Below are positions 1,528-22,036 of a stretch of DNA of 64,000 nt, in pieces. The DNA lies in NCBI RefSeq assembly GCF_001317345.1, contig NZ_JXCG01000001.1:1-64000 (forward strand). The letters are read 5' to 3'. The position numbers and the translations under genes are program-made. Each line of letters starts with the position of its first letter. Position 1 is the stretch's first letter. The notes beneath the pieces are model-generated. The model was not told where the DNA came from. It ran no database searches and saw only the letters and a program-made list of their open reading frames with translations. The DNA is from Thermococcus sp. EP1 (lineage in GTDB: Archaea > Methanobacteriota_B > Thermococci > Thermococcales > Thermococcaceae).

Positions 1528-2934
<1,407 letters not shown>

Positions 2935-2966
2935 GCTTTTCCTATTTTTCTAACTTGGGGTAAAAT

Positions 2967-2976
2967 TTATATATAG
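2967..2976 (+). promoter_or_regulatory. TATA box of the mannosylglycerate operon
   Basis: ATTTATATATAGG, with purines before it, lies about 75 bases upstream of mpgS, giving an unusually long leader for this order (about 50 bases). The leader carries AGGAGGTGAG just before the start codon. I see no glycolytic motif: the nearest ATCAC/GTGAG pair has a 7-base instead of a 5-base spacer. Confidence 0.6.
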
Positions 2977-3048
2977 GGGAAAACAAAGAGTATTTGGCAG
3001 AGTGTTTTTGATTATTCTGCTTGCTATAATCACTTAGGAGGTGAGAAC

Positions 3049-4233
3049 ATGCTTTTAGAGGCTCCAGTTTATAAGGAAATCTTTGGAGCGGTGAAAATTT
3101 ACGAACTACAAAAAGTCATCAAGATGGATACTGAAACCGAAGATGTTCCAATGTTTACGGTGCAAAATATTCCGAGAGGGGATATATACAAAGTTATTGG
3201 GGAAATGGCAATAGTTGTACCTATGAAAAATGAGAAGCTTCATCTTGTTGATGGTGTGTTAAAGGCAATCCCCCATAAATCAACTATCATCATAGTTTCT
3301 AACAGTAAAAGGAAAGGGCCCAACAGATTTAAGCAAGAAGTAGACCTAGTTAAGCACTTTTGCAATCTAACGCACTCAAAGGTCTTGATGATTCACCAAA
3401 AAGATCCTGGACTAGGAGAAGCTTTTAAAGAGGTTGGATATGAGGATATTCTTGATGAAAAAGGGCTTGTAAGAAGCGGAAAGGGCGAGGGAATGCTCCT
3501 AGGAATATTACTTGCAAAAGCTATAGGTGCCAAATACGTTGGCTTTGTTGATGCTGATAATTACATCCCAGGAGCCGTTAACGAGTATGTTAAAGACTAT
3601 GCTGCTGGTTTCTTGATGAGTGAGAGTGACTATGCAATGGTAAGACTCCACTGGCGACACAAACCAAAAGTAAGTAAGGGAACACTCTACTTCAAAAAAT
3701 GGGGAAGGGTAAGTGAGATAACAAATCGCTATCTAAATCAACTCATAAGTGAGAAAACCACATTTGAGACCACTATTATGGTGACTGGAAATGCTGGAGA
3801 GCATGCCATGACAATGAAGCTTGCAGAAATCATACCATTTTCCACAGGTTATTCAATCGAACCCTACGAGATAGTTTATCTCCTTGAGCGCTTTGGCACT
3901 TGGGAGAATGCAAAAGAACTCCAAGAGGTATTTGATCAAGGAATAGAAATTTTCCAGATAGAAACCTTAAACCCACATTTTCATGAGGATAAAGGCCAAG
4001 AACACGTAAAAGAGATGGTTCTGCTTTCATTAACCACTATATACCACTCAAAACTCTCATCAGAGAGTCTAAAACGACAAATCCTAAATGATCTTAGAAT
4101 GCACAATATAATAAAAGAAGACGAAGAGCCTCCAAAACCAAGAGTCATGAGGCCGATAAAAGAGATAGACATTAAAAAATGGATGGACACGTTGGAAGCC
4201 AATCAAGAGACATTATTGAGGTTCGATCTATGA
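3049..4233 (+). CDS. mpgS: Mannosyl-3-phosphoglycerate synthase
   Basis: GT55 glycosyltransferase that transfers mannose from GDP-mannose to 3-phosphoglycerate, giving mannosyl-3-phosphoglycerate, the precursor of the osmolyte mannosylglycerate. The 394-residue length matches the Pyrococcus horikoshii enzyme. A GT-A nucleotide-binding half is visible (VVPMKNE near residue 56), with the metal-binding DAD at residues 168-170 in [13 protein letters not shown]. It is the first gene of a four-gene operon; its stop codon overlaps the mpgP start (ATGA at 4230). AGGAGGTGAG precedes ATG 3049. Cytosolic. Mannosylglycerate accumulates in these organisms under salt or heat stress. Confidence 0.96.
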
Positions 4234-4961
4234 AGATAATATTCCTTGATCTTGACAAAACCCTCATAGGAGAGGACTATTCCCCAGAACCAGCCAAAAA
4301 AATAGTAGAATTTCTAAAGGAGAGGGGATTTAAGATAATATTTAACTCATCAAAAACTAAAGCTGAACAGGAGTACTACCGAAAGGCACTTGATATTAAC
4401 GATCCATTTATCGTAGAAACTGGAAGTGCAGTGTATATCCCAAAAGATGACCTGCCTTTTAACTTTCCCTTTACACGGAAAGAGAGAAATTATCTAGTAA
4501 TTGAGCTTGGAGTTAGCTATACTATAATAAAAAAAGCTCTAGATGAGATAAAAGACGAATTTGGATTAAAATACTATGGAAACTCAAGCCTAGAGGAAGT
4601 AATTAAATACACCAATCTTCCAGGAGATCTAGCAAAATTGGCCATGCAAAGGGAGTATTCAGAAACCATATTCACTTGGGATACCCCAGGCTTCGAAAAA
4701 GAACTGACAAAAAGAGAATTAAAAATATCAAAGGGAAGCAGATTCTACAACGTAACTGGGAACACCGACAAAGGAAAAGCTGCTAAACTTATTTTGAATT
4801 TGTATTCACAGATTGAAAAAGTTGAGAGTTACGCCGTCGGAGATGGCCAAAACGACATTCCTATGCTCAAAGTCGTTGATTATCCCTTCACAATCGGTTT
4901 ATCCTATTCGGGGGCTAAGAATATAAGGGAAATAACTAAATTAATGGAGGTGATAAAATGA
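4230..4961 (+). CDS. mpgP: Mannosyl-3-phosphoglycerate phosphatase
   Basis: HAD-superfamily phosphatase (Cof/MPGP branch) that removes the phosphate from mannosyl-3-phosphoglycerate, releasing mannosylglycerate. The 243-residue product begins with the catalytic motif FLDLDKTL (Asp7 nucleophile, Asp9 acid/base) and ends with the metal motif GDGQND near residue 205. The start at 4230 forms an ATGA overlap with mpgS and places motif I at the extreme N-terminus, as usual; an upstream in-frame ATG at 4179 lies deep inside mpgS and is unlikely. The gene overlaps manC by another ATGA (4958-4961), so the two are translationally coupled. Confidence 0.95.
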
Positions 4962-6340
4962 AAACCCTAATCCTCGCTGGAGGGAAAGGCACTCGACTCT
5001 GGCCCCTGAGTAGAGAACTTATGCCAAAGCAGTTTATAAGAATATTTAACAACACTTCATTATTCCAAAAAACCATAGAAAGAGCACTAAAATTCTCAAA
5101 ACCAAAGGAAATTTTTGTCGTGACAAATAAAGAATACAAGTTCAGGGTTCTTGATGACCTTAAAGAACTTGGTCTTGAAATCCCAGAAGAAAATATCCTT
5201 CTAGAGCCTATAGGAAAGAACACTCTTCCAGCTATTTACTGGGGAATGAAGACTATAGAGGAAAATTATGGTAGATCGAAAGTTGCCGTGTTGCCCTCAG
5301 ATCACTTGATAAAAGTTGATGAAAACTATATTACAGCATTTGAAAAAGCTGAACAGCTTGCTAATAATTATTTCATAACATTCGGAATTAGACCTACAAA
5401 GCCTCACACAGGTTATGGATACATAAAACCTGGCGAAAAGCTTGAGGGAGGATACAAGGTAGATGAATTTAAAGAGAAGCCAGACTACGATACTGCGAAA
5501 CAATATGTAGAAAATGGGTATTACTGGAACAGTGGAATGTTCCTATTCGACAGCACTCTTTTCATCGAGGAAGTAAAAAGAGTCGCTCCTAAAGTTTACA
5601 CTGCTTTTGAAGAGGCAAAGAATATAGAAGAGGCATATGAAAAAGTACCAGATATCTCAGTTGACTATGGTGTCATGGAGAAAACAGACAAAGCTGCTGT
5701 GGTACCCCTAAATACATACTGGAATGACTTGGGGAGTTTTGATGCCATATATGAAGCCTTTGGGAAAGATAAAACTGGGAATGCTGTTAGAATCAGTGGA
5801 TTTAAAGGAGAGTACATAAACATAGACTCCAAAAATAATCTTGTAATAACTGAAAGATTAACAGCAACAGTTGGTGTTGAAGATCTGATAATAATCGATA
5901 CTGGAGACGCATTACTCGTTGCGAAAAAAGGAGAAACTCAGAAAGTTAAGGAAGTTTACAGAAAGCTTGTAGAGAGCAATGATGAGAGGGCCATAGTGCA
6001 CAAGACAGCGTACAGACCATGGGGCTCTTATACCGTGCTGGAAGAAGGAGAGAGATACAAAATAAAGCGCCTAACGGTTTTACCTGGAAACAGACTCTCC
6101 CTCCAACGACACTATCATCGCTCGGAACATTGGGTTGTAGTCAGAGGGACTGCAAAAGTGAAGATAGGGGATAAAGAACTCCTATTAAGGCCTGGAGAGA
6201 GTACTTTCATACCTGCAGGGGTAGTACACAGACTCGAAAATCCCGGGAAAGTCACACTTGAAGTCATAGAAACACAAATAGGAGAATACCTGGGTGAAGA
6301 TGACATTGAACGTTTCCAAGACGATTTTGGAAGAGGTTGA
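4958..6340 (+). CDS. manC: Bifunctional mannose-1-phosphate guanylyltransferase / mannose-6-phosphate isomerase
   Basis: Supplies GDP-mannose and interconverts fructose 6-phosphate and mannose 6-phosphate. The 460-residue protein has an N-terminal nucleotidyltransferase domain (GGKGTRLWPLS at residues 8-18, PSDH near 112, FKEKP near 171) and a C-terminal cupin domain from about residue 345 with the metal-binding pattern RHYHRSEHW near 385 and PAGVVHR near 423. This is the type II PMI/GMP architecture. It lies in the mannosylglycerate operon and overlaps mpgP by four bases. The protein could also supply GDP-mannose for glycan synthesis. Confidence 0.95.
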   Translation: MKTLILAGGKGTRLWPLSRELMPKQFIRIFNNTSLFQKTIERALKFSKPKEIFVVTNKEYKFRVLDDLKELGLEIPEENILLEPIGKNTLPAIYWGMKTIEENYGRSKVAVLPSDHLIKVDENYITAFEKAEQLANNYFITFGIRPTKPHTGYGYIKPGEKLEGGYKVDEFKEKPDYDTAKQYVENGYYWNSGMFLFDSTLFIEEVKRVAPKVYTAFEEAKNIEEAYEKVPDISVDYGVMEKTDKAAVVPLNTYWNDLGSFDAIYEAFGKDKTGNAVRISGFKGEYINIDSKNNLVITERLTATVGVEDLIIIDTGDALLVAKKGETQKVKEVYRKLVESNDERAIVHKTAYRPWGSYTVLEEGERYKIKRLTVLPGNRLSLQRHYHRSEHWVVVRGTAKVKIGDKELLLRPGESTFIPAGVVHRLENPGKVTLEVIETQIGEYLGEDDIERFQDDFGRG

Positions 6341-6375
6341 GATAAAAAGCCTATAATAGGGCACAGGTGATGAAG

Positions 6376-7749
6376 ATGAGCAAGATATTTGGGACATTCG
6401 GCGTTAGGGGCATAGCAAATGAGAAAATAACCCCAGAATTTGCTTTAAAAATGGGCCTAGCTTTTGGAACACTTTTAAAAAGAGAAAAACCAACCAAAGA
6501 GCTTTGGGTAGTTGTGGGAAGAGACACTAGAGTAAGTGGAGAAATGTTGAAAAATGCCTTAATAAGTGGCCTACTAAGCACTGGCATTAATGTTATAGAT
6601 GTAGGTATAGCTCCAACACCGGCAATTCAGTTCGCATGTAAATACTTCAAAGTGGACGGAGGAGCTGTTATCACAGCATCTCACAATCCTCCAGAATACA
6701 ATGGAATAAAACTTCTCGAACCAAATGGATTGGGACTCAAAAAAGAGAGAGAAAGTATAGTTGAGGAACTTTTCTTTAATGAGGAATTTCATAAGGCAAA
6801 ATGGTATGAAATTGGCCAACTCGTAGAAAGAGATATAATAAGACCATATATAGACGCGATAAAGTCTAAAGTGGACATTGAAGTCATAAAAAAGAGAAGA
6901 CCATTTGTAGTCGTCGATACATCAAACGGTGCTGGGTCACTTGTGCTCCCATACCTCCTAAGGGAACTCGGGTGTAAAGTTGTGAGTGTAAATGCTCAGC
7001 CAGATGGCCACTTTCCAGCAAGAAATCCAGAACCGAATGAAGAAAACCTTCAAGGATTTATGAAAATCGTTAAATCGCTTGGCGCTGACTTTGGAGTTGC
7101 TCAAGATGGAGATGCAGATCGTTCAGTATTCATAGATGAAAACGGAAACTTTATTCAAGGAGATAAGACCTTTGCCCTTGTGGTCAAAGCTATGCTCGAA
7201 GAAAATAAGGGTGGTCTGGTGGTGACAACCATTGCCACTTCTCACATAATCGATGAACTTGCCAAGATGTATAATGGAAAGGTCATCAAAACCAAAGTGG
7301 GGGATCTAATAGTATCGAGAACCCTTCTGGAGCATAATGGACTAGTTGGAGGAGAAGAAAATGGTGGAGTTATCTTTCCAGAACATGTTCTTGGTAGAGA
7401 TGGTGCAATGACCGTAGCAAAGATAGTTGAGATCTTTGCAAAGAGCGGCAAGAAATTCAGTGAGTTAATAGACACACTTCCAAAATTCTACCAACTCAAA
7501 ACTAAAAAACATGTCGAAGGAGATAGAAAAACAATTGTCGCAAAAGTAGCAAAATTCGCAAAGAAAGAAGGGCTAACTATTGATACAACCGACGGGACAA
7601 AGATACTCTTCAAAGATGGTTGGGTTCTTGTGAGAGCGAGTGGAACCGAACCCATAATAAGAATCTTTGCCGAAGCAAAAAGCGAAGAAAAAGTAAAAGA
7701 ATACCTCAACTTGGGACTAGACCTATTAGAAAAAGTATTAAACGATTAA
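6376..7749 (+). CDS. Phosphomannomutase/phosphoglucomutase
   Basis: Alpha-D-phosphohexomutase that converts mannose 6-phosphate to mannose 1-phosphate for ManC. The 457-residue product has the four family signatures: the phosphoserine loop TASHNPP (Ser102), the magnesium loop DGDADR near residue 245, GGEENGG near 325 and the phosphate-binding RASGTEP near 423. The start at ATG 6376 is preferred because AGGTGA (6365-6370) lies at the right distance; upstream GTG 6367 and ATG 6370 overlap that site. It is the last gene of the mannosylglycerate operon, 35 bases after manC. Archaeal members often accept both glucose and mannose phosphates. Poly-T-rich sequence follows the stop codon. Confidence 0.92.
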   Translation: MSKIFGTFGVRGIANEKITPEFALKMGLAFGTLLKREKPTKELWVVVGRDTRVSGEMLKNALISGLLSTGINVIDVGIAPTPAIQFACKYFKVDGGAVITASHNPPEYNGIKLLEPNGLGLKKERESIVEELFFNEEFHKAKWYEIGQLVERDIIRPYIDAIKSKVDIEVIKKRRPFVVVDTSNGAGSLVLPYLLRELGCKVVSVNAQPDGHFPARNPEPNEENLQGFMKIVKSLGADFGVAQDGDADRSVFIDENGNFIQGDKTFALVVKAMLEENKGGLVVTTIATSHIIDELAKMYNGKVIKTKVGDLIVSRTLLEHNGLVGGEENGGVIFPEHVLGRDGAMTVAKIVEIFAKSGKKFSELIDTLPKFYQLKTKKHVEGDRKTIVAKVAKFAKKEGLTIDTTDGTKILFKDGWVLVRASGTEPIIRIFAEAKSEEKVKEYLNLGLDLLEKVLND

Positions 7750-10473: not shown

Positions 10474-12717
10474 CTATTTCTCCAAGGTTACTTCTTCTCC
10501 TAGACTTAAGATAGCTTCTTTTCCAAATGCACAAACTTTAACATTTCTTGTCCCATTAATGATTTTTGCCCTTATCTTGTTATTTTTGACAACAAGATCA
10601 ATCCATGTTCCTCTGAAAAAGAATCTAAGGTTTACTGATTCCCATTTTTGAGGTAAGCTTGGCGAGATTTCTACTCTATCATCCTTGATGTCAATTCCAC
10701 AAAAACCTCGGAAGAGTGCTTGCCATACTCCCCCTGCTGTTGCAAGATGGAAGCCATCATGAGTGTTCCCATAAATGTTCCTAAGATCTATATAAGCACA
10801 CTTTGTGAAATAGTCATAGGCCAGATCATCATAACCTAGCCAAGAGGCCACTATGCTGTAAGCCGGCATTGAAAGAGAAGAAGCGTGGGTCGTCCGGACA
10901 ATGTAGTAATCAAAGTTCTTTTTAATTGTCTCAAGATCAAACTGTTCCTTTAACAGATATTGAGCTGCTATAACATCCGCTTGCTTTATGAGCCTTGTTT
11001 TTCCTATCCTTTTTCTTATCTCTTCGGGGAGTCTTGCTTCTCCAATACCATAAGGATCAAGTTTGTAGTCTTCCAAGTCAAAATATCCATCAAATTCCTC
11101 GAATACTCCCTCCACTTGTCTTGGAATATAAATCCTTTCTGCTATCTGAAGCCATTTATGCACTTCCTCTTCATCAACTCCAGTTCTTTTTACAGTTTCT
11201 ACCCATTCGCCCCCAAGCTCCAGAGCTTTTTTAAAATACGCAACTCCTAAGAGAAGGTTATGCTTTGCCATTAAATTCGTGAAAAAGCTATTATCTACGT
11301 GCTCATGATACTCATCTGGACCTATGACTTTTCGTATTACATACCCTCTTTTCTCATCAAATTCTACCCTACTGGCCCAAAAACGGGCCGTTTCAAGGAT
11401 TATTTCAAGCCCATATTTTGACATGAACTCTTCATCTCTAGTAAACTTATAGTACAAGTCCACAGTATAAGCTATGTCTGCGGTTATATGGTGCTCTTCC
11501 TCTCCTGTGTAAATTCTCACAACTTCCTTACCAGCCATGTCGAGAGGAACCAGGGAGGGAGTAGCCTCATACCCATCGTCAGCAGACTCCCAAGGGAATT
11601 GAGCACCATCATAACCATTGAGTTTAGCATTTTCTTTAGCAGGTTTTAGATTCCTATACCTATACATCAGCATCCTCCTGGCATCATCTGGAAAAACTGC
11701 TATAAAGAATGGAAGTGCATAGATCTCAGTGTCCCAGAAAACATGTCCCCTATAACCAAAGCCGTGTATTCCTCTGGCTGTTAGAGAAATATTGCTATCT
11801 CTTGGTAGTGACTGAATCAAATGGAAGAGACTAAAGTTAAGCCCTTTTTCTGCCTCATCATCACCTTCAATCTCAATCTTGGCCTTCTTCCAAATGTTAT
11901 TCCAGTACTCTCTGTGCTCTTCATAAAGCTTCCCAAAACCCAATTCCACAGCTTCTTTGAGTTCTCCTAAAACTTGTTCCTTTAAATTCTCATCGTTTTT
12001 AGAGGATATAACCACATATTTAATAAATTCATAGACCTCGTTAGGCCGAACTTGTAGACTTAAGACCTCTGCTATACCCCTACTACTCTTTATAACGCTT
12101 CTCTCCACCTTTTCCTCTGTGATAAGGGAACTTCCAATCCCAATGCTGTATCTATCATCCAGTGTTCTAACCTCCGCATATATTGATTCCTCATCAAAAT
12201 AAAGTTCCTTAAGTGAGCAATGTTTCACCATAATTTCTGGACGGTAAGAAGGGTTTGCAACATCTGTTTCAATTGGATTTACCAAAGTTAATAAACCACC
12301 TTTACTCGCTTGAAATTTAAACTTTAATATAATAAGGTTCTTTCGTTTTCCATGAACAATTCTTAAACTCTCATATTGAATTTTCACTCCTTTGTGGGTC
12401 TCCATGTGAACCCAAGTCTTTAATGTTCCTTCCTTAATATTAAGTTCTCTTTCATATCTTGAAAGCTTGTGTGTGCTCAAATTAAGAGGCTCTCCACTAA
12501 ACATCATCTGCAGCCCAATTACTCGAGGAGCATTCACGATTTCTCTATAAAAGTAGGGAGCATAGTCATAAATCCCCGCAACAGTTGTACCATATATTGT
12601 GGGTTCAAGTTCAATTTCTCCCCTTAACCCAATATGACCATTTCCTAATGTTAATATCGTACCATAAAGTTCCTCTTCTCTTGGTGAGTATCGGTTAAAC
12701 TCGAAATTGAACTTCAT
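10474..12717 (-). CDS. GH65 disaccharide phosphorylase (kojibiose/trehalose/maltose phosphorylase family)
   Basis: Inverting phosphorylase that splits an alpha-glucosyl disaccharide with phosphate, giving beta-glucose 1-phosphate. The 747-residue length, the N-terminal beta-sandwich, the (alpha/alpha)6 barrel and the short C-terminal cap fit the family. The catalytic acid lies in IGPDEYHEH near residue 470, and the phosphate-loop-like THASSLSMPAYS lies near 615. Linkage specificity (alpha-1,2 kojibiose, alpha-1,1 trehalose or alpha-1,4 maltose) cannot be read by eye. It overlaps the stop codon of the beta-phosphoglucomutase-like gene by four bases, which supports beta-glucose 1-phosphate as product. 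No signal peptide, so it acts on imported sugar. Confidence 0.88.
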   Translation of the reverse strand: MKFNFEFNRYSPREEELYGTILTLGNGHIGLRGEIELEPTIYGTTVAGIYDYAPYFYREIVNAPRVIGLQMMFSGEPLNLSTHKLSRYERELNIKEGTLKTWVHMETHKGVKIQYESLRIVHGKRKNLIILKFKFQASKGGLLTLVNPIETDVANPSYRPEIMVKHCSLKELYFDEESIYAEVRTLDDRYSIGIGSSLITEEKVERSVIKSSRGIAEVLSLQVRPNEVYEFIKYVVISSKNDENLKEQVLGELKEAVELGFGKLYEEHREYWNNIWKKAKIEIEGDDEAEKGLNFSLFHLIQSLPRDSNISLTARGIHGFGYRGHVFWDTEIYALPFFIAVFPDDARRMLMYRYRNLKPAKENAKLNGYDGAQFPWESADDGYEATPSLVPLDMAGKEVVRIYTGEEEHHITADIAYTVDLYYKFTRDEEFMSKYGLEIILETARFWASRVEFDEKRGYVIRKVIGPDEYHEHVDNSFFTNLMAKHNLLLGVAYFKKALELGGEWVETVKRTGVDEEEVHKWLQIAERIYIPRQVEGVFEEFDGYFDLEDYKLDPYGIGEARLPEEIRKRIGKTRLIKQADVIAAQYLLKEQFDLETIKKNFDYYIVRTTHASSLSMPAYSIVASWLGYDDLAYDYFTKCAYIDLRNIYGNTHDGFHLATAGGVWQALFRGFCGIDIKDDRVEISPSLPQKWESVNLRFFFRGTWIDLVVKNNKIRAKIINGTRNVKVCAFGKEAILSLGEEVTLEK

Positions 12718-13418
12718 ACCCTACCCTCCTTTCTTTCTATAAGCTGCTGAAGGTTCTTAGTAGTCAATTTGGCAAAATCATCAAAAGTCAAGTCAGCACT
12801 ATCCAACTTCGCTTCCCTTTCATAGCCCAAAGTAAAGGCTCCAAGTTCTTTTCCAGCCCGAATACCTGCTGGAGCATCTTCAATTACGAAGAAAAATTTG
12901 ATATCTGAAAAATTTCTTCTCAACTCTTCCATCGCCAGTTTGAAAACCTCTTTTTTAGTTGGGGCCATTCCACTAACATTCACATCAAACAAATCAGCAA
13001 GTGTTTTCTCCCCAATCTTGACTTTTTTCGCTAGTTTTGTCGCATTTTTAGATGCAGATGCAAGAGCATTCTTTATTCCAGCTTTTTTTGCGTTCTGTAA
13101 AAAGGCTATTGCATTCCAATTAACCTCGTATTCCTCCCTTTCAAACATCTCGTTGACTATCCTGTTCTTAAACTCTGCAAATTCATGTAGAAGTTCCTTT
13201 CTCTCTTCTTCACTTCTTGCATTATATTTTTCATAAATCCCCTTGAGTTCTAATATCTTATGAGCTCCCTCATATCTTGGTTTCCCTGAAACATAGGTCA
13301 CATAAAATTCGTGATCAATGTCCGCTCCGTAGTGCCTTGCAGCTCTTTTCCAAGCTTCTTCATGAGGAGTAAAGACTAATACACCATCAAAGTCCCATAT
13401 TAGTGCTATCTCCTTCAT
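12714..13418 (-). CDS. Beta-phosphoglucomutase-like HAD protein
   Basis: HAD-superfamily protein of 234 residues with motif I DFDGV (Asp9 nucleophile, Asp11), a cap segment containing SGKPRYEGA near residue 44, motif II Ser/Thr in ASASKN near 120 and the acidic motif EDAPAGIRAG near 178. This set fits beta-phosphoglucomutase, which would convert the GH65 product beta-glucose 1-phosphate to glucose 6-phosphate. It sits between a TrmB-family regulator (15-base gap) and GH65 (4-base overlap), all on one strand. Other HAD phosphatase activities are possible, but the context is strong. Confidence 0.82.
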   Translation of the reverse strand: MKEIALIWDFDGVLVFTPHEEAWKRAARHYGADIDHEFYVTYVSGKPRYEGAHKILELKGIYEKYNARSEEERKELLHEFAEFKNRIVNEMFEREEYEVNWNAIAFLQNAKKAGIKNALASASKNATKLAKKVKIGEKTLADLFDVNVSGMAPTKKEVFKLAMEELRRNFSDIKFFFVIEDAPAGIRAGKELGAFTLGYEREAKLDSADLTFDDFAKLTTKNLQQLIERKEGRV

Positions 13419-13433
13419 TTGATGCCCTCCAGT

Positions 13434-14492
13434 TCATCTTTCTATTTTCTCTATTATAATGCGCTGAGCCTCGATATCTTCCACCTCTGCATCAAATCCT
13501 CCTATAGTTAATGTCCCTTCTTCACTTTCAAGAACAAAATTACTTACAATTCCAAAACGGTTTACAGAACGAACTCTTCCTTTGGTTTTTATGGGGTAAC
13601 TACTTTTAATATCCCTTCCTTCTACTGTAACTATGGGAGTGTAACCAAGCTTTAAGAGAGTTTCCAGCTCGTTAAGCGCCATAGAAAATTCTATAAAGGT
13701 CTTTGGATACAGTTCGGGCCTTGAAACCCAACAAAGGGCCTCTTTAGCCTTTATCCATAGATTATTGTGAATGTTTAGTAATCTAAGCAATAAATCCTTT
13801 TCTTGAATGACATACCCATAAATCTCCGTATTTGAAACGGGAAGCTTATGAACACTAAAGAACCTTCTTTTTGCATAAACTGCACTTGAAAGATCTGCAA
13901 TAACAAGCAAAAAGTTCCCAAGTTCAGAGGTTTTTATTTTCACTTGATCTTTGAATCTCTCAAATTCCTCAAATCCGCCAGTTCCAGGGTATACCAAAAG
14001 ATATAAGTTTACTCCTCTCTGAGCAGCCCCTAAAAGATAATGTTTGAGCTCTTTAAAAATAGGGAATGGCAGTTCTGCTCTAATCTCTACTTCTGCAGAG
14101 TTAACTATCTCTATAATACTAGCCAATACACCCTCTAAACTCCTAACCATAGAGATATACGGTCCCTCTTCTTCCGACCTGCTTTTTATTTTCATAAGTT
14201 CTTCTTGAAGAGTGCTTTTTAAAAGGTCAAATTTCATTTTTTGAATATCTATGAGGGCGCTTATATCACTTGCAGTATATATTCTAGGCCTCCCTGCAGA
14301 AGCTCTAATAAACCCCTTCCTGATAAGGCTTTGGATTATGTTATACAATTGAGGTTGATGTATATCCAATGACTCAAGAAGATCCTTCACGGTGGCCCCA
14401 TTCCTCACAAGAATAGCAAGATACACTTCAGCTTCTCTTTTCGTGAGTCCTAGTTCCTGTAGCTTCTCAATCAAAAACGCATAGTTTTCCAT
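13434..14492 (-). CDS. TrmB-family sugar-sensing transcriptional regulator
   Basis: Regulator of 352 residues. An N-terminal winged helix-turn-helix (about residues 8-80, with TKREAEVYLAIL and the recognition segment QPQLYNIIQSL) is followed by a short coiled region and the TrmB-type effector domain; the C-terminal beta-rich part (about 285-352) matches the TrmB sugar-binding end. It differs at the N-terminus from classical TrmB as I remember it, so it is a separate family member. It is divergent from the sugar ABC operon and heads the beta-PGM/GH65 operon, so it very likely controls both. Repeats at 14516-14564 around its own TATA box are candidate operators. The effector is probably the imported sugar. 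Confidence 0.87.
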   Translation of the reverse strand: MENYAFLIEKLQELGLTKREAEVYLAILVRNGATVKDLLESLDIHQPQLYNIIQSLIRKGFIRASAGRPRIYTASDISALIDIQKMKFDLLKSTLQEELMKIKSRSEEEGPYISMVRSLEGVLASIIEIVNSAEVEIRAELPFPIFKELKHYLLGAAQRGVNLYLLVYPGTGGFEEFERFKDQVKIKTSELGNFLLVIADLSSAVYAKRRFFSVHKLPVSNTEIYGYVIQEKDLLLRLLNIHNNLWIKAKEALCWVSRPELYPKTFIEFSMALNELETLLKLGYTPIVTVEGRDIKSSYPIKTKGRVRSVNRFGIVSNFVLESEEGTLTIGGFDAEVEDIEAQRIIIEKIER

Positions 14493-14515
14493 TGGTACAC
14501 CCCCACTGCCCCCTG

Positions 14516-14564
14516 CTACTATACTTTTTCTGCATTAATACTATTTAAATATATTGCATACTAT
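14516..14564. promoter_or_regulatory. TACTAT direct repeats, candidate operator of the TrmB-family regulator
   Basis: TACTAT occurs at 14517-14522, 14539-14544 and 14559-14564, that is 22 and 20 bases apart (about two helical turns), with the last two extended to ATACTAT. They flank the leftward TATA box (TTTAAAT). A related inverse copy (TAGTATA) lies at 14592-14598 after the rightward TATA box. The glycolytic consensus TATCAC-N5-GTGATA is absent here. Which protein binds is inference from location. Confidence 0.45.
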
Positions 14565-14574
14565 ATCAGTAAGG

Positions 14575-14583
14575 TTTATATAA
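14575..14583 (+). promoter_or_regulatory. TATA box of the sugar ABC operon
   Basis: TTTATATAA preceded by AAGG. The predicted start site near 14605 gives a leader of about 40 bases containing GGGAGGGA before ATG 14645. Confidence 0.55.
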
Positions 14584-14644
14584 TATCATTGTAGTATAAA
14601 AATTGAAAGACCATATTACTTAACCCTAGGTGGGAGGGAGAAAA

Positions 14645-15976
14645 ATGAAGAAAGTTCTCTTTGGAGGTCTTTTGATTTTTGCCTTGCTTTTTGCAGTAGT
14701 AGCCTCAGGATGTATTGGAGGCCAAACTCCAACCCCAACAACAGAAACAAAGACTGAAACCGAGACACAGATTCAAGAAAAAGTCTTCATAAGATTTGCA
14801 GGTTGGAGCGCTGGAGAAACTGAGATGAAAAACTACCAAAAAATGATTGCTGAATTTGAGCAAGCAAACCCGAACATTGGTGTTAAATATGAGGTCATTA
14901 CTCAAATGTTCCACGAAAACATCCTAGCTTCATTTGGAGCTGGTGTTGCTCCAGACATATTCTACGTCGATAGCGCATGGTCACCAATATTCATTGACAA
15001 GGGAGCTCTATACCCAATATCCGAACTTGCAGACCAAAGCTTTATCGATCAATTCTATCCATTCCTCTTAGAACCCTTCAAGAAAGATGGAAAGCTTTAT
15101 GGTCTTCCAAAAGATTGGAGTATGTTAGCTCTCTTCTATAACAAGAAACTCTTTGAGCAAGCAGGATTGACAAAACCACCCGAAACTTGGGAAGAGCTTG
15201 AACAATACGCAAAGATAATAGCTGATAAAACTGGAAAACCTGGCTTGGCAATTTACCTTGGTGGATTCAACAGATACGTACCCGTTGCTGTGAGTAACGG
15301 TGCTCCAAAGCCTTGGTTTGAAAAACCTGAAGATGCAGCTTGGTTTGACAATCCAGTGGTTAAAGAAACCCTTACTTGGTACATAAACCTCTACAAGAAA
15401 GGAAAGATTGAGAGAGAAGAACAAGGATTAACTCCTTATGTTGTGCAACCCGGAGATGTAGGTGCAGGATGGCTTGGAGATGCCTTTGGTCAACAAGAAG
15501 TTGCTATGGTAATAAGTGGAAACTGGATGATACCATTCTTAGCTGATCAGTTCCCTGACTTCAAGTATGGAGAAGACTGGGACATTGCTCCAGTTCCAGC
15601 TGGAAAAGAAGGCAGAGTTACAATGGCATATACAGTCATCTTAGGAATAAACGCAAAGAGCGAACATCCACAAGAGGCTTGGAAATTTGTAGAATTCTTA
15701 TTAGGTCCAGATGGACAAAAAGAACTTGTTGTCAAAGGAGGACACACACTACCAAGCATAAAGGGCTTTGAGAACGACCCCGACATGTGGCCACAACACA
15801 AGAAGACACTCTCCTTTGAGTACGACGAAATGATAGTGTTCCTTTGGGGTCCAAAATCAGGACCACTTGAAGGTAAGTTCAGTGACGCAATGGCTGCTGC
15901 AATGAGAGGAGAAATGACAATTGACGAAGCAATAGATGTTATGAAGCAGGTTGTTCAAGAAGAATTAAGTGGCTGA
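14645..15976 (+). CDS. Sugar ABC transporter substrate-binding lipoprotein
   Basis: Extracytoplasmic solute-binding protein of the MalE-like family (443 residues). The N-terminus has a hydrophobic signal with the lipobox VASGC (lipidated Cys23), followed by a Thr/Glu-rich linker (about residues 27-48) that tethers it to the membrane, then the two-lobed binding fold (AGWSAGETEMKNYQ onward; ADQFPDFKYGEDW near 300). It is the first gene of the malEFGK-like operon. I chose ATG 14645 because GGGAGGGA precedes it; a GTG at 14630 would add five residues but overlaps that site. The sugar is unknown; the neighbours point to a di- or oligosaccharide. Confidence 0.92.
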   Translation: MKKVLFGGLLIFALLFAVVASGCIGGQTPTPTTETKTETETQIQEKVFIRFAGWSAGETEMKNYQKMIAEFEQANPNIGVKYEVITQMFHENILASFGAGVAPDIFYVDSAWSPIFIDKGALYPISELADQSFIDQFYPFLLEPFKKDGKLYGLPKDWSMLALFYNKKLFEQAGLTKPPETWEELEQYAKIIADKTGKPGLAIYLGGFNRYVPVAVSNGAPKPWFEKPEDAAWFDNPVVKETLTWYINLYKKGKIEREEQGLTPYVVQPGDVGAGWLGDAFGQQEVAMVISGNWMIPFLADQFPDFKYGEDWDIAPVPAGKEGRVTMAYTVILGINAKSEHPQEAWKFVEFLLGPDGQKELVVKGGHTLPSIKGFENDPDMWPQHKKTLSFEYDEMIVFLWGPKSGPLEGKFSDAMAAAMRGEMTIDEAIDVMKQVVQEELSG

Positions 15977-15986
15977 GGTGACTGAT

Positions 15987-16925
15987 ATGTTTTCTTTTTC
16001 TTCTTTTTATGAGAAGGCTAGAAATAAGGAAATTGTTGCCGGTTTATCTCTCATCTCAATCGCTGTCATTCTAAACCTCGTTTTTGGATATTTTGCAATG
16101 GGATTTGCCTTCTATTTGAGCTTTTTCAAGTGGGATTATATAGGGACAATGCAATTTGTGGGGTTAAAAAATTTTGAGATAGTGTTAAGAGACCTAATGA
16201 GAGGTCTCAACGGAGCCTCATATTTACTTTCTCCGTTTTATACAGGATTAAAAAACATTCTTATTTATACTGCAATAGTTGTCCCCGTACAAACGTTTCT
16301 TGCTATAGTTTTAGCCTCTTTTGCAAATCAAAAGATTAAGGGCCAACAATTCTTTAAAGTATCCTACTTTCTTCCTGCAACCACCTCTTCCGTTATAGTC
16401 GCCTTGATTTTTATTTGGCTCTTCATGAAAAACGGTTTTATTAATTTTGCACTTTCCCATGTAATTCCAGGATTCCAACCAATAGACTGGATAAACGATA
16501 GAAATTATCTCCTCTTAGCGATAGCTACTGTTGCTATATGGGGAACCAGTGGACACTTTATGGTGTCCTTCCTAGCAGCAATGCAAGCGATTCCCAAAGA
16601 AATATACGAGGCGGCTATGCTAGATGGTGCAGGCCCCATAAGAAGATTCTTCTTCATAACAATTCCAATGTTAAGGCCCATGATAGTGTATGTAGTGGTT
16701 ATGGGTCTTATTGGGGCCCTCCAGATGTTTGACCTAGCTTGGGTAATGGCTGGGGCCAATGGCGGGCCAGGAGGGGCAGGATACACCGTGGCACTGGACA
16801 TCTATAATGAGGCATTTACAAGAATTAACCCCGGGGTTGCAGCAGCTAAAAGTTGGTTCCTCTTTGCTATAATCTTTACAACTACATATATCTTCCAGAA
16901 AAAGTATGGGAGGGCTATGAGATGA
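15987..16925 (+). CDS. Sugar ABC transporter permease (MalF-like)
   Basis: Integral membrane permease of 312 residues with about six membrane segments and the ATPase-coupling EAA loop (EAAMLDGAGPIRRFFFITIPML near residues 208-229, where the conserved Gly follows EAAMLD). Transports the ligand of the upstream binding protein. ATG 15987 is preferred over GTG 15969 because GAGGTGA (15975-15981) lies just before it; this puts the start 10 bases after the binding-protein stop codon. The gene overlaps the second permease by four bases. Unlike bacterial MalF, it lacks a large periplasmic P2 domain. Confidence 0.9.
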   Translation: MFSFSSFYEKARNKEIVAGLSLISIAVILNLVFGYFAMGFAFYLSFFKWDYIGTMQFVGLKNFEIVLRDLMRGLNGASYLLSPFYTGLKNILIYTAIVVPVQTFLAIVLASFANQKIKGQQFFKVSYFLPATTSSVIVALIFIWLFMKNGFINFALSHVIPGFQPIDWINDRNYLLLAIATVAIWGTSGHFMVSFLAAMQAIPKEIYEAAMLDGAGPIRRFFFITIPMLRPMIVYVVVMGLIGALQMFDLAWVMAGANGGPGGAGYTVALDIYNEAFTRINPGVAAAKSWFLFAIIFTTTYIFQKKYGRAMR

Positions 16926-17770
16926 CACCCAAAGAAAAAGAACTACTAATACGACGTATCTGGGTTGTAATAACTTATGTAGTCCTATTAACCTTTGCAC
17001 TCGTTTATCTAATGCCATTCATCCGCTCTCTTGTAGCTTCTTTTATGACGTGGGCTCAAGCTTCAAGATACCCCCCAGAGTGGATGCCTAGTCCATTCAC
17101 CCTAGAGAATTATCAGAAACTCTTTAGGTTGGAATTATTCCCAAGATGGATTAGAAACACTGCTCTTTATGCGGGTTTAATAGTTGCGGGCAATATAATG
17201 TTTACCAGCATGGCCGGTTATGCATTTGCTAGATTGAAATTCCCAGGGAGAGATGTTCTTTTTTCAGCTCTACTTTCTCTCTTGATGATCCCCATGTTCG
17301 TAACCTTAGTGCCAAATTACATTATAATATATAAGCTTGGGCTAATAGACAACATCTTTGGACTTGCCCTTCTGGGCCTCACTAATGTCTCGAGCATATT
17401 CCTAATGAGACAGTACTTCATGTCTCTTTCCACCGAAATATTTGAAGCTGCTCGTTTGGATGGATGCGGACCGATAAAATCATTTTTCTACATTGCCTTA
17501 CCTCTAGCAAGACCTGCCCTTGGAGCAGTGGCCGTATATCAATTCTTAGGCTCTTGGAATGCATTTATAGGTCCACTGATCTTCTTAAGATCTCCCGAGA
17601 ACTTCACACTCCCAGTAGGACTTAGTTTTGCTTTCCAAAGAAGCATGTGGACTGAATACACTCCAATAATCGCAGGTTCACTCGTGGCATCTGCACCCAC
17701 GATAATCCTCTTCCTTGTGCTGAATAAGTATCTGATTAGAGGTATAGTAGTTACAGGAGGGAAAGGCTGA
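16922..17770 (+). CDS. Sugar ABC transporter permease (MalG-like)
   Basis: Second permease of the sugar importer, 282 residues, with six predicted membrane segments and an EAA loop (FEAARLDGCGPIKSFFYIA near residue 180). The start at ATG 16922 forms an ATGA overlap with the first permease; a longer frame from 16853 would run inside that gene and add a non-homologous head. The stop codon overlaps the ATPase start by one base (17770), so binding protein, permeases and ATPase are tightly coupled. Confidence 0.9.
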   Translation: MTPKEKELLIRRIWVVITYVVLLTFALVYLMPFIRSLVASFMTWAQASRYPPEWMPSPFTLENYQKLFRLELFPRWIRNTALYAGLIVAGNIMFTSMAGYAFARLKFPGRDVLFSALLSLLMIPMFVTLVPNYIIIYKLGLIDNIFGLALLGLTNVSSIFLMRQYFMSLSTEIFEAARLDGCGPIKSFFYIALPLARPALGAVAVYQFLGSWNAFIGPLIFLRSPENFTLPVGLSFAFQRSMWTEYTPIIAGSLVASAPTIILFLVLNKYLIRGIVVTGGKG

Positions 17771-18843
17771 TGGCGAGGGTTTTGCTGAAGAATGTCACAA
17801 AGAAATTTGGAGATGTGATAGCTGTTAGTAGGCTAAACCTTGAAATTAAAGATGGAGAATTCATGGTGCTACTTGGTCCAAGTGGATGTGGGAAATCAAC
17901 AACTCTTAGAATGATTGCTGGATTGGAAACACCTACAGAGGGTGAAATATGGATTGGCGATCAATTAGTTAATGAAATAGACCCCACTAAGAGAAATACA
18001 GCAATGGTATTCCAGAGCTATGCTTTATACCCCCATATGACTGTCTTTGGGAATATCGAATTTCCTCTAAGAATGGCTGGTGTTCCAAAACAGGAACGAG
18101 CCAAAAAGGTAAAAGAAGTTGCAGAGTTCCTGGGAATAAGTGAGTTGTTAAACAGAAAACCAAGCGAGTTAAGTGGTGGGCAACAGCAAAGAGTAGCACT
18201 TGCAAGAGCACTCGTAAGAGAACCTGAGGTATTTCTACTAGATGAACCTTTAAGTAACTTGGATGCAAAAATAAGAACTCAAATGCGTTTTGAGCTTAAA
18301 AAACTCTTGAGTTACGATTTAGGAATAACAACAATTTATGTAACTCACGATCAGGTCGAGGCTATGACAATGGCCGATAGAATAGCTGTTATGAATAAAG
18401 GAGTTCTCCAACAAGTTGGAACTCCAAATGAAATCTTTTACAAACCCGCAAACACTTTCGTCGGTACATTTGTAGGAAGCCCCCCTATGAATCTAATTGA
18501 AGGAGAAATAATTGTAAAAGACAACAAAACACTCTTTAATGCTGGTGAATTTTTGTTAGAGCTTCCAATAGAAATGGAAGCCAGGGAAAAAGTGATTCTA
18601 GGCTTCAGGCCCCAGCATGTAGAAGTAAGCAAAGACGCAAAGGAAGGGTTTGTTAAAGGAAAGCTCCTAGGTATCGAAAAACTAGGGGTAGAAAGTTATG
18701 GCCATATTCCCTATGGCAACCTAGAGATAGTTGTTCAACTTCCAGAAAGTATGGGAACCAGTGTAAAAGAGGTTTACTGGAAACCAAGGGCAGACAGAAT
18801 ATACATATTCGATGCTAAAACAAGAGAACTCATTTATGGATAA
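17770..18843 (+). CDS. Sugar ABC transporter ATPase (MalK/MsmK-like)
   Basis: Energising ATPase of the sugar importer, 357 residues. Walker A GPSGCGKST is at residues 36-44, the signature LSGGQQQR near 136, Walker B FLLDEP near 156, and the switch histidine in THDQVEAM near 190. A C-terminal OB-fold (TOBE) regulatory domain covers about 240-357, as in MalK. It forms the last transporter gene and is followed after 12 bases by the GH130-like gene, which therefore belongs to the same transcript. Confidence 0.93.
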   Translation: MARVLLKNVTKKFGDVIAVSRLNLEIKDGEFMVLLGPSGCGKSTTLRMIAGLETPTEGEIWIGDQLVNEIDPTKRNTAMVFQSYALYPHMTVFGNIEFPLRMAGVPKQERAKKVKEVAEFLGISELLNRKPSELSGGQQQRVALARALVREPEVFLLDEPLSNLDAKIRTQMRFELKKLLSYDLGITTIYVTHDQVEAMTMADRIAVMNKGVLQQVGTPNEIFYKPANTFVGTFVGSPPMNLIEGEIIVKDNKTLFNAGEFLLELPIEMEAREKVILGFRPQHVEVSKDAKEGFVKGKLLGIEKLGVESYGHIPYGNLEIVVQLPESMGTSVKEVYWKPRADRIYIFDAKTRELIYG

Positions 18844-18855
18844 GGAGGGAACTTT

Positions 18856-19893
18856 TTGAAAAAGAAATATGCGGCTATTATTTTTTTATTAATATTTACA
18901 ATTCTGTTTCTAACTTATGGATTCAGATACGATTGTACTCCTCCAATAAGTGGATACACACGAGTTTCAGACAAACCAATTTTATCCCCAGGGGAGTATC
19001 CTTTCGAAAGCAAAGCAGCGTTTAATCCCGCAGCAATTGTTGTTAACGATACGATTTATCTATTCTACAGAGCCCAAGATAATAAATTTAGATCTTATAT
19101 AGCCCTAGCAACTAGTAAAGATGGGATAAACTTCAAAAAGTATCCTCAACCCGTGATATATCCCACTCTCCCAGAAGAAAGAATGGGATGTGAAGATCCA
19201 AGAATTGTAAAAATCAACGATACTTACTATATGACATATACAGCTTTTGATGGTTCCACTGCAAGACTTGCAATAGCTTCAAGTAAAGATCTAATACACT
19301 GGGAAAAACATGGAATAGTGTTCCCTGAATGGCCATGGACAAAAAGTGGTGCAATACTCCCAGTTAAAATAAACGGAAGCTATATAATGTTTTTTGGAGA
19401 TTGGAAAATCTGGATTGCATACAGCAAAGATTTAATTCATTGGAAAGCAGACTGGAAAAATCCAATACTAGAGGCCAGGTTAAAAATGTTTGATGAACGT
19501 CTCGTAGAACCAGGTCCACCTCCAATACTCACAGACAGAGGCATTTTGCTATTTTATAATGGAGCAAGCTGGGAAAAAGGATATAGTGTTGGGTGGGTTC
19601 TACTCGATCCCTCTAATCCCTACAGGGTTATCGCAAGGTCTGATGAGCCTATATTTGAACCACAATTACTTTGGGAAAAAGTGGGAAATGTTCCAAATGT
19701 GGTTTTTGCTGAAGGCCTAGTAAGGTACAAGGGAAAGTGGATCATGTACTATGGAGCAACGGATAAGTATACCGGAGCCATCATAGCACCAGCGTGCAGA
19801 TTTAGCTTTTATGGAAAAGAGATCAAAAATGCATGGTTTAATGAGTGGCTTAACAAGGTCTTCTGGAGATTATATGGAGAAAATTACCCATAA
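18856..19893 (+). CDS. Membrane-anchored GH130-like glycoside phosphorylase/hydrolase
   Basis: 345-residue protein with an N-terminal membrane segment (about residues 5-21) and a five-bladed propeller of the GH130 type: NPAAIV near 57, FYRAQD near 70, ATSKDGINF near 85, and the family motif GCEDPRI with catalytic Asp114. GH130 enzymes act on beta-mannosides, most as phosphorylases in the cytoplasm, some exported members as hydrolases. The N-terminal anchor predicts an extracytoplasmic position, which favours hydrolysis or mere binding. The start is TTG 18856 with GGAGGGA five bases before it. It is co-transcribed with the ABC genes. Specificity is not known; a GH43/GH32-type propeller is the alternative. 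Confidence 0.72.
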   Translation: MKKKYAAIIFLLIFTILFLTYGFRYDCTPPISGYTRVSDKPILSPGEYPFESKAAFNPAAIVVNDTIYLFYRAQDNKFRSYIALATSKDGINFKKYPQPVIYPTLPEERMGCEDPRIVKINDTYYMTYTAFDGSTARLAIASSKDLIHWEKHGIVFPEWPWTKSGAILPVKINGSYIMFFGDWKIWIAYSKDLIHWKADWKNPILEARLKMFDERLVEPGPPPILTDRGILLFYNGASWEKGYSVGWVLLDPSNPYRVIARSDEPIFEPQLLWEKVGNVPNVVFAEGLVRYKGKWIMYYGATDKYTGAIIAPACRFSFYGKEIKNAWFNEWLNKVFWRLYGENYP

Positions 19894-19966
19894 ATCAAGA
19901 CAAAATCTAAATCTTTGTTACTCAACCCTGAAAATATTGCCACAAGAGTGTTAGAGGGGTGATAAA

Positions 19967-21169
19967 ATGAGAATAGCAATGATAACTCCTCATGGAGATC
20001 CATTGGGGAAATTGGGTGAACCAGACACTGGAGGTCAGTGTGTCTACATTAAAGAACTAAGCAAGCATCTAGGAGAGTTAGGGGCAGAAGTAGATATGTT
20101 CACCAGACAGAGAGGTGGAAAACCTCCTATAGAGCACATTAACGAAAATGTCAGGGTAATTAGGATAGAATGTGGTCCTGAAGGCTTCATTCCAAAGGAG
20201 AAGCTAATACCATATTTGCCAGAATTCACTGAAAAAATTGCCAGATACATGAAGGAAAGAAATTATGAAATTCTCCATACCCATTACTGGGATGGTGGTT
20301 TTGTAGGATTAAAACTCAAGGAAATGTTTGAAGTTAAAATGGTACATACCTCCCATTCTCTTGGAATTCTGAAAGCAAAAGCTCTAGGGGACTTTGAACC
20401 ATACAAAGATAGAATTGCCCTTGAAAAAGAGATTTACGATAAGGGTGATGCTATAATAGCAACTACAAACATTGAAAAGAAAGATATAGCTACCCTTTAT
20501 GAAATTGACGAGAATAAAATCCACGTGATCCCTATAGGGGTTGACACAAGCTTTTATAAACCAATAGAAAAGAAAGAAAAGCTAAAAAAGGAGCTTAAAC
20601 TTCCAAAAGTGCCATTAGTCTTTACTCTAGCAAGACTAGACCCAAGAAAGGGCTTAGACTTGCTCATAAAGAGTGTTCCCTATATCAAGAAGCATTATGA
20701 TGGAGATTTTCTAGTTCTAATAAGTACCGGCACCGGAGCAAAGGAAGAAGAACCAGAAAAACAGAAGCTTTTACGTTTAATTAAAGAATTGAAAGTTGAA
20801 GATCGTGTAAAGATAATTCCTGCAATAGAGCCGAGAGAACTAGTTCCAAAATACTATTCAGCTGCGGATGTCTTTGTTCTTCCCTCTCCATACGAGCCAT
20901 TTGGAATAGTCATGCTTGAAGCAATGGCATGCAAAACTGCTATGGTGGGAACAAAGTTTGGGGGTCCAGCAGAAGTCCTAACAGATGGTTATGATGGATT
21001 CTTAGTAGACCCAAAAAATTCTGAAGAAATGGGAGCCAAGATTGCAGAGCTGTTAAAGAATAAGGAGAAGAGAGATACCTTTGCGGAGAGAGCATATCAG
21101 AGAGTTCTCGAAAGATACTCCTGGCATAGCGTGGCTAAACAAGTACTCCAACTCTTTAAAGAATTATGA
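19967..21169 (+). CDS. GT4 glycosyltransferase of the sucrose(-phosphate) synthase-like clade
   Basis: 400-residue GT-B enzyme. The N-terminal GGQCVYIKELSKHLGELG (near residues 22-39), THYWDGG near 107 and HTSHSLG near 126 are typical of sucrose synthase, sucrose-phosphate synthase and mannosylfructose-phosphate synthase. The donor-site E-x7-E motif is EPFGIVMLE near residue 308. It could make or, like sucrose synthase and TreT, reversibly cleave a disaccharide with NDP. The gene follows the GH130-like gene by 73 bases with GGGGTGA before ATG 19967, and a fructokinase-like gene follows after 9 bases. Resemblance to known trehalose synthase TreT of this order is weaker than to the sucrose-type clade, judged from memory. 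Confidence 0.8.
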   Translation: MRIAMITPHGDPLGKLGEPDTGGQCVYIKELSKHLGELGAEVDMFTRQRGGKPPIEHINENVRVIRIECGPEGFIPKEKLIPYLPEFTEKIARYMKERNYEILHTHYWDGGFVGLKLKEMFEVKMVHTSHSLGILKAKALGDFEPYKDRIALEKEIYDKGDAIIATTNIEKKDIATLYEIDENKIHVIPIGVDTSFYKPIEKKEKLKKELKLPKVPLVFTLARLDPRKGLDLLIKSVPYIKKHYDGDFLVLISTGTGAKEEEPEKQKLLRLIKELKVEDRVKIIPAIEPRELVPKYYSAADVFVLPSPYEPFGIVMLEAMACKTAMVGTKFGGPAEVLTDGYDGFLVDPKNSEEMGAKIAELLKNKEKRDTFAERAYQRVLERYSWHSVAKQVLQLFKEL

Positions 21170-21178
21170 GGTGACAAC

Positions 21179-22036
21179 ATGATTGATATTTTGACATTAG
21201 GGGAAGCATTAGTTGACTTAAAACTCATAAATAGTCAAATAAGTATGCACGCTGGTGGCTCTGTCCTTAACTTTTCTTATTATGCTGAACAAACTGGGGC
21301 AAAAGTGAAATTTGTTGGCACTATAGGAAATGACTTCTTAGCAGACCATATAGAAAGTGAACTCAAATACTTAAATTCAAACATAAAGCCATTTCGTATA
21401 GGTCAAAACACGACTCTAGTTTTAATAAAAGAAGCTGGAAAAGATTTTATCATCTATAGAGGAGCTGACAGGTTCTTAACCTATAATATAATCGAGAGAA
21501 ACTGGAAAAAAGCAGAGATTGTACATACCTCTGCATTCGCACTCTCTCTGAAGCCTGCCAGTGCGGCCATTCTTAGAGCATTGAAAAAAGCAAAGGATGA
21601 AGGAGTATTGATCTCAATAGACCCCAATTATCGTAAAGAAATATGGAAGAAATGGAATGCTAAAAAAGAAAATCTACTACAGGCCCTCGCAATGGCAGAT
21701 TATGTTAAACCCTCATTTGAAGATGCTAAGGAACTCTTTGGAATAGAAACTCCAGAAGAAGCATTAAAGGCTTTTAAAAACGCAGGAGCAAAGAATATTA
21801 TATTAAGTATGGGAGAAAGAGGAGTTATTGCACTTACTGAAGACAACGAGATTATTAAAGTACCTGCAAAGAAAGCTAACATTGTGGACCTCACAGGAGC
21901 TGGAGATTCGCTTTTTGGAACAGTGATAGCAAATATAGCAAAGGGATATTCTCTCAATGAAGCCATACAAGAAGGAATCAATGTAGCCACTCAAGTTATA
22001 AAAAACCCAGGCAACCTCGTAAGAATAACACAATGA
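21179..22036 (+). CDS. PfkB-family sugar kinase (fructokinase-like)
   Basis: Ribokinase-fold kinase of 285 residues. The N-terminal GEALVDL and the glycine pair AGGSVLNFSYY near residue 26 form the sugar site; the C-terminal signature DLTGAGDSLFGT near 235 carries the catalytic aspartate. Most similar by eye to fructokinases and KDG kinases. It lies 9 bases after the GT4 gene with GAGGTGA before its start, and ends the island. If GT4 releases free fructose, this enzyme would phosphorylate it. The substrate is inferred from context only. Confidence 0.82.
   Translation: MIDILTLGEALVDLKLINSQISMHAGGSVLNFSYYAEQTGAKVKFVGTIGNDFLADHIESELKYLNSNIKPFRIGQNTTLVLIKEAGKDFIIYRGADRFLTYNIIERNWKKAEIVHTSAFALSLKPASAAILRALKKAKDEGVLISIDPNYRKEIWKKWNAKKENLLQALAMADYVKPSFEDAKELFGIETPEEALKAFKNAGAKNIILSMGERGVIALTEDNEIIKVPAKKANIVDLTGAGDSLFGTVIANIAKGYSLNEAIQEGINVATQVIKNPGNLVRITQ

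Follow-up and report, generated by a model that had tools for sequence, protein, structure and literature searches.

A GT4 glycosyltransferase with a predicted SPS-type acceptor site, paired with a PfkB-family kinase in sugar-importer operons of Thermococcaceae

When a GT4-family glycosyltransferase and a PfkB-family sugar kinase are encoded side by side in an archaeon, it has to be asked which sugar they act on, in which direction and in which order. Such a pair occurs in the window analysed here, a stretch of 64,000 nucleotides from Thermococcus sp. EP1, whose genome is a Thermococcaceae draft of 43 contigs. The original prediction placed the glycosyltransferase (hereafter GT4) in the clade of sucrose-phosphate synthase (SPS) and sucrose synthase (SuSy), regarded the kinase as fructokinase-like, and took the lack of a neighbouring sucrose phosphatase as a sign of a reversible SuSy-type reaction.

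The gene pair and its surroundings

GT4 (400 aa) occupies positions 19967-21169 of the plus strand and is followed, after 9 bases, by the PfkB kinase (285 aa; 21179-22036, plus strand), as open reading frames and Pfam domains both confirm: PF13439 (102 bits) and PF00534 (152 bits) in GT4 and PF00294 (154 bits) in the kinase are far above their cut-offs. A ribosome-binding-like sequence, GAGGTGA, lies 5' of the kinase gene, and GT4 also has a good one. The motifs on which GT4 had been recognized (GGQCVYIKELSKHL, THYWDGG, HTSHSLG and EPFGIVMLE) were all found in its translation.

The original prediction was silent on the main context of the pair, an ABC sugar importer lying directly upstream together with a TrmB-family regulator. 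The upstream genes make up a single unit. Its minus strand carries a GH65 glycoside phosphorylase (10474-12717), a beta-phosphoglucomutase (beta-PGM)-like HAD protein (12714-13418) and the TrmB-family regulator (13434-14492). Divergent from the regulator, on the plus strand, are the importer genes for a substrate-binding protein (SBP; 14642-15976), two permeases (15984-16925 and 16922-17770) and a MalK/UgpC-like ATPase (17770-18843) whose score of 439 bits exceeds the NF008653 cut-off (432). A GH130-family protein with an N-terminal hydrophobic anchor (18856-19893, plus strand) is encoded between the importer and GT4. Among solved structures, GH65 is closest to the kojibiose phosphorylase of Caldicellulosiruptor (501 bits; next best, 302 bits). 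The kojibiose pathway of Pyrococcus sp. ST04 reportedly consists of GH65 and beta-PGM. The TrmB-type gene of the window corresponds to the regulator of kojibiose clusters elsewhere in Thermococcales, and we take it, by its position in the cluster, to be TrmBL4 (PH0751). Publication of the ST04 pathway is credited to Jung et al. 2014, as cited in PMC8537180.

Five matches to the TGM glycolytic motif were counted in the window at no more than two mismatches, which is not above chance, and none lies near the locus. Positions 1531-7749 carry an ADP-dependent glucokinase followed by a mannosylglycerate operon (MpgS, MpgP, mannose-1-phosphate guanylyltransferase and phosphomannomutase), all named by sequence reading.

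Distribution and operon context

GT4 orthologues with 74-96% identity were found in nine of 94 Thermococcaceae genomes, the window's own included, and PfkB orthologues in exactly the same nine. The two genes adjoin in every one of them, so that their pairing, as first proposed, is not due to chance. In eight of the nine genomes, the pair lies within an ABC sugar-importer operon. Three of these (the window's genome, G076 and G002) have it behind a kojibiose-type importer, and four others (G073, G027, G020 and G075; loci L031-L034) have it in an operon of the order SBP-permease-permease-GT4-PfkB-TrmB-MalK, hereafter type II. SBPs of the type II operons are only 27-30% identical to that of the window, and the two cluster types may therefore handle different sugars. 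Genome G093 carries SBP-P1-P2-GT4-PfkB-TrmB between SpeB and eIF5A and a separate kojibiose cluster at L111, and G001 has GT4-PfkB-TrmB alone. Comparison of L030 with L111 in G093 places the type II operon between SpeB and eIF5A, where the window has its kojibiose cluster and GT4-PfkB, which suggests cluster replacement around a retained pair at this site.

Dependence of the pair on kojibiose phosphorylase was ruled out, GH65 being present in 24 of the 94 genomes and mostly without the pair. A functional partnership with GH130 was also dropped, since this gene is not conserved with the pair: it is missing at this place in L029 and lies beside the kojibiose cluster in L111. In the sister genome G084 (L106), which is 95% identical to the window here, a clean 2.9-kb deletion opposite 19115-22023 has removed the 3' part of GH130, the whole of GT4 and nearly all of PfkB, leaving a GH130 remnant of about 260 bp. 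Based on this deletion and on the varied contexts across genomes, the pair is a separable and dispensable unit.

The type II regulator is a homologue of Pyrococcus furiosus TrmB (PfTrmB; 202 bits); residues N305, G320 and E326 are conserved in it, and three others are replaced (M321P, V324I and I325L). An inverted-repeat search revealed, and exact counting of the motif in each 20-kb locus confirmed, a TACTN3AGTA sequence ahead of SBP in all four type II operons (L031-L034), at a distance of under 60 bp and just downstream of a TATA-like sequence. The exact motif, expected about once per 64 kb, has no further occurrence in any of these 20-kb loci apart from a second copy in the same promoter at L034; the four loci are related and hence do not count as independent evidence. 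Only a degenerate version was found in G093, and the exact motif is absent from the window's own cluster, which thus lacks the operator found with this gene order in L031-L034. Immediately 5' of the type II operon of G075 (L034:3400-6300), CRISPR-array-like repeats are visible only as repetitive spurious ORFs.

Outside Thermococcaceae, the closest GT4 homologue found is 37% identical and occurs in three Thermoproteota genomes, where a gene of the sucrose-phosphatase family (PF05116, 180 bits) comes immediately after it. This SPS/MshA-like GT4 and its neighbour, seen at L048:8398-10371 and also in L049 and L050, form a candidate archaeal pair for sucrose synthesis. Searches run without a positive control detected no close GT4 homologue in 295 genomes of the G117 phylum and 392 of the G115 phylum. 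Two bacterial plasmids were also noted: Acidithiobacillus plasmid p6 (L072, 10.8 kb), which is largely a sucrose cluster of MFS transporter, PfkB, GH100 and an SPS with HAD domain, and a cyanobacterial plasmid (L075:2155-6639) in which a sucrose synthase gene is immediately followed by one annotated pgmB.

Enzyme families and acceptor site

GT4 scored 250 bits with the MshA model (TIGR03449, cut-off 462.5), 190 with SPS (TIGR02472, cut-off 576) and 105 with SuSy (TIGR02470, cut-off 810), all below cut-off; the value of 576 belongs to NCBI's named SPS equivalog, so that failing it bars the name and not the resemblance. Among solved proteins, those nearest to GT4 in sequence are the SPS of Thermosynechococcus (TeSPS), MshA and the SPS of Halothermothrix (HoSPS). 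The predicted model (pLDDT 91) has MshA and TeSPS as best fold matches by E-value, with HoSPS next and SuSy later; the fold is common to all of them, and the highest TM-score was obtained with one SuSy chain. In the tree, the nine Thermococcaceae sequences form one clade, whose union with HoSPS, a bifunctional SPS and a SuSy is moderately supported (89/82). AU tests rejected a grouping with MshA (p 0.007) and with SuSy alone (p 0.005), and also two further groupings, one with only HoSPS and one with the Thermoproteota homologue. The assignment of GT4 to the SPS/SuSy clade therefore holds. This 400-aa protein lacks the two N-terminal SSN tetramerisation domains of SuSy (described in PMC11046441) and aligns with 6kih/3c4q from residue 1-3 onwards.

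In TeSPS, R105 and R178 hold the phosphate of sucrose 6-phosphate (S6P), fructose is contacted by A48 and Q51, and H158 and E331 are indispensable (PMC7264703). By alignment, with the numbering checked, R105, R178, A48, Q51, H158 and E331 correspond to GT4 K77, R149, T21, Q24, H130 and E310, and the catalytic E339 to E318; further donor/catalytic positions of GT4 are R223, R227 and K228. Q24, K77 and R149 are invariant in the nine orthologues. K77 and R149 are shared with SPS and MshA, and SuSys carry Lys or Arg at the position of K77, which alone does not separate them. R149 is replaced by Gln in three SuSys (AtSUS1, NeSuSy and Pseudanabaena) and T128, likewise invariant in the nine orthologues, by Ile, so that these two residues provide a clear test of SPS-type versus SuSy-type enzymes. 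Q24 is Gln in SPS and SuSy and Met in MshAs. The combination of Q24 and R149 is the SPS pattern, and with the invariant residues matched to TeSPS it identifies the GT4 acceptor site as SPS-type at the level of sequence.

As originally noted, no sucrose phosphatase lies near the pair, and a genome-wide search for its family (PF05116) matched none of the nine pair-carrying genomes, against 12 of 14 control genomes. The step from this absence to a SuSy-type reaction does not follow, since the acceptor-phosphate residues are SPS-type in all nine orthologues, the three SuSys having Gln and Ile at the two diagnostic positions; the lack of SSN domains and the AU test also speak against it.

Judged by PF00294 and the invariant TGAGD (G240-D243), the catalytic motif, the kinase is a genuine member of the PfkB superfamily. 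Its specificity is less clear-cut than "fructokinase-like" implies. Fructokinase is indeed the best match, among HMMs and among solved sequences (the Halothermothrix fructokinase), but it is a weak one (118 bits against the PRK09434 cut-off of 450), with IolC (112 bits) and KDG kinase (103 bits) close behind, all far below cut-off. Fold comparison of the kinase model (pLDDT 83) could not tell fructokinase and KDG kinase apart. The sugar-site motif in the nine orthologues is GGS[VAC]LN and not GG(A/S)PAN, a motif drawn from the few fructokinases compared.

Possible function and known counterparts

The gene pair, its invariant SPS-type pocket, the importer with its TrmB-family regulator and the lack of any detectable phosphatase of the sucrose-phosphatase family are observed directly, and would be most simply reconciled by conversion of a sucrose-like sugar to NDP-glucose and fructose 6-phosphate (F6P); the sugar, the direction and the order of the two steps we infer from them. 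We propose, at slightly less than an even chance, that GT4, as a retaining glycosyltransferase of SPS type, and PfkB together make up an accessory catabolic unit supplied by the ABC importer, which would take up an alpha-glucosyl-fructoside, sucrose being the first candidate. The importer operons support the direction towards cleavage. In the favoured order, PfkB would phosphorylate the fructosyl C6, and GT4 would then run the SPS reaction backwards, from S6P and NDP to NDP-glucose and F6P. As both products would enter metabolism, a sucrose phosphatase would be unneeded. Phosphorylation before cleavage is favoured by the SPS-type pocket and cleavage first would be favoured by a normal fructokinase; on balance, the kinase-first order is somewhat ahead.

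Taken as a complete route, PfkB phosphorylation of the imported sugar followed by reverse SPS-type cleavage is rather doubtful. Several points weigh against the proposed unit: the substrate of known PfkB fructokinases is free fructose, and a sucrose kinase of this family would have no precedent; the kinase pocket differs from the GG(A/S)PAN of the fructokinases compared; and known SPS, which has been investigated as the biosynthetic partner of a phosphatase, works in vivo in the direction of S6P. We know of no description of a disaccharide catabolic route made of a kinase and a reverse SPS, and a literature search yielded neither a Thermococcales SPS nor growth of pair-carrying species on sucrose. 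If true, the bond energy would be kept as nucleotide sugar, with no invertase, phosphorylase or sucrose phosphatase required. More speculatively, the kojibiose phosphorylase and GT4-PfkB of the window might act successively on one alpha-1,2-glucosylated sucrose.

A SuSy-type order, as envisaged by the original prediction, would have GT4 split free sucrose with NDP into NDP-glucose and fructose, which PfkB would convert to F6P, the phosphate-binding residues being relics or serving another role. A standard fructokinase would then suffice, in line with the Halothermothrix match, the clade does include SuSy, and the operon layout parallels that of TreT, which takes an unphosphorylated glucose acceptor. 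The invariance of R149 and T128, Gln and Ile in the three SuSys, the absent N-terminal domains and the rejection of SuSy alone as sister nevertheless make it rather unlikely. A GT4 working forward as SPS, with NDP-glucose and F6P giving S6P or another glycosyl phosphate, PfkB recycling fructose and an unrelated phosphatase freeing the solute, would agree with the clustering of SPS and PfkB/fructokinase genes in sucrose-making bacteria (MFS-PfkB-GH100-SPS/SPP on the Acidithiobacillus plasmid; spsA-sppA-frkA-amsA) and with the sucrose-phosphatase-family gene that the Thermoproteota homologue precedes. This we regard as improbable, given the lack of a sucrose phosphatase in all nine genomes and the location of the pair inside importer operons, four of them with a TrmB operator; moreover, sucrose is, to our knowledge, not among the known Thermococcales solutes.

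About as improbable is a substrate that is not sucrose-like, GT4 using inositol phosphate or a different hexose phosphate as acceptor, or a mannose donor, and PfkB phosphorylating that acceptor. MshA is the best single HMM and a top fold match of GT4, and IolC and KDG kinases match PfkB about as well as fructokinase does, but Q24 is Met in MshAs and their grouping with GT4 is rejected. On these same two grounds, an inositol-phosphate transferase resembling MshA and partnered by a myo-inositol kinase was rejected as first choice. Thermococcus kodakarensis TK2285 was considered with that reading; a literature search brought up nothing linking the two.

Returning to the proposed catabolic unit, several known systems resemble it in part. 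The Thermococcales kojibiose cluster (GH65 phosphorylase, beta-PGM, TrmBL4-type regulator and ABC importer) matches the window genes at 10474-18843, but is usually without GT4-PfkB, which in the window is appended to its importer operon. SPS (TeSPS 6KIH, HoSPS 2R60/2R68; EC 2.4.1.14) shares with GT4 the GT-B fold, single-domain length, acceptor-phosphate residues, fructose-contact Gln, catalytic His and E-x7-E, whereas GT4 stays well under the SPS cut-off, is found in genomes with no detected sucrose-phosphatase-family gene and belongs to an uptake operon with PfkB. SuSy (AtSUS1 3S27, NeSuSy 4RBN; EC 2.4.1.13) has the same clade, fold, GGQ motif and, as proposed here, NDP-dependent cleavage, but differs by its acceptor Gln in place of Arg and its two extra N-terminal domains. 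In bacterial sps-spp-fructokinase clusters, genes of the SPS and PfkB families likewise lie side by side, but a phosphatase is included and an ABC importer with TrmB regulator is lacking.

A parallel to the type II operon is known from T. litoralis and P. furiosus: their trehalose/maltose (TM) operon is malE malF malG treT trmB malK, its TrmB operator is TACTN3AGTA, and PfTrmB binds sucrose (PMC4158304). By its matching gene order (SBP-permease-permease-GT4...TrmB-MalK, with a GT4 enzyme beside the importer), its TrmB homologue and its operator, the type II operon is this published layout with treT replaced by an SPS-type GT4 plus PfkB. An SPS-type enzyme in an uptake operon, with a kinase replacing the phosphatase, would represent an energy-saving use of disaccharides at high temperature and, beside TreT, a second case of a Thermococcales GT4 disaccharide enzyme placed in an uptake operon.
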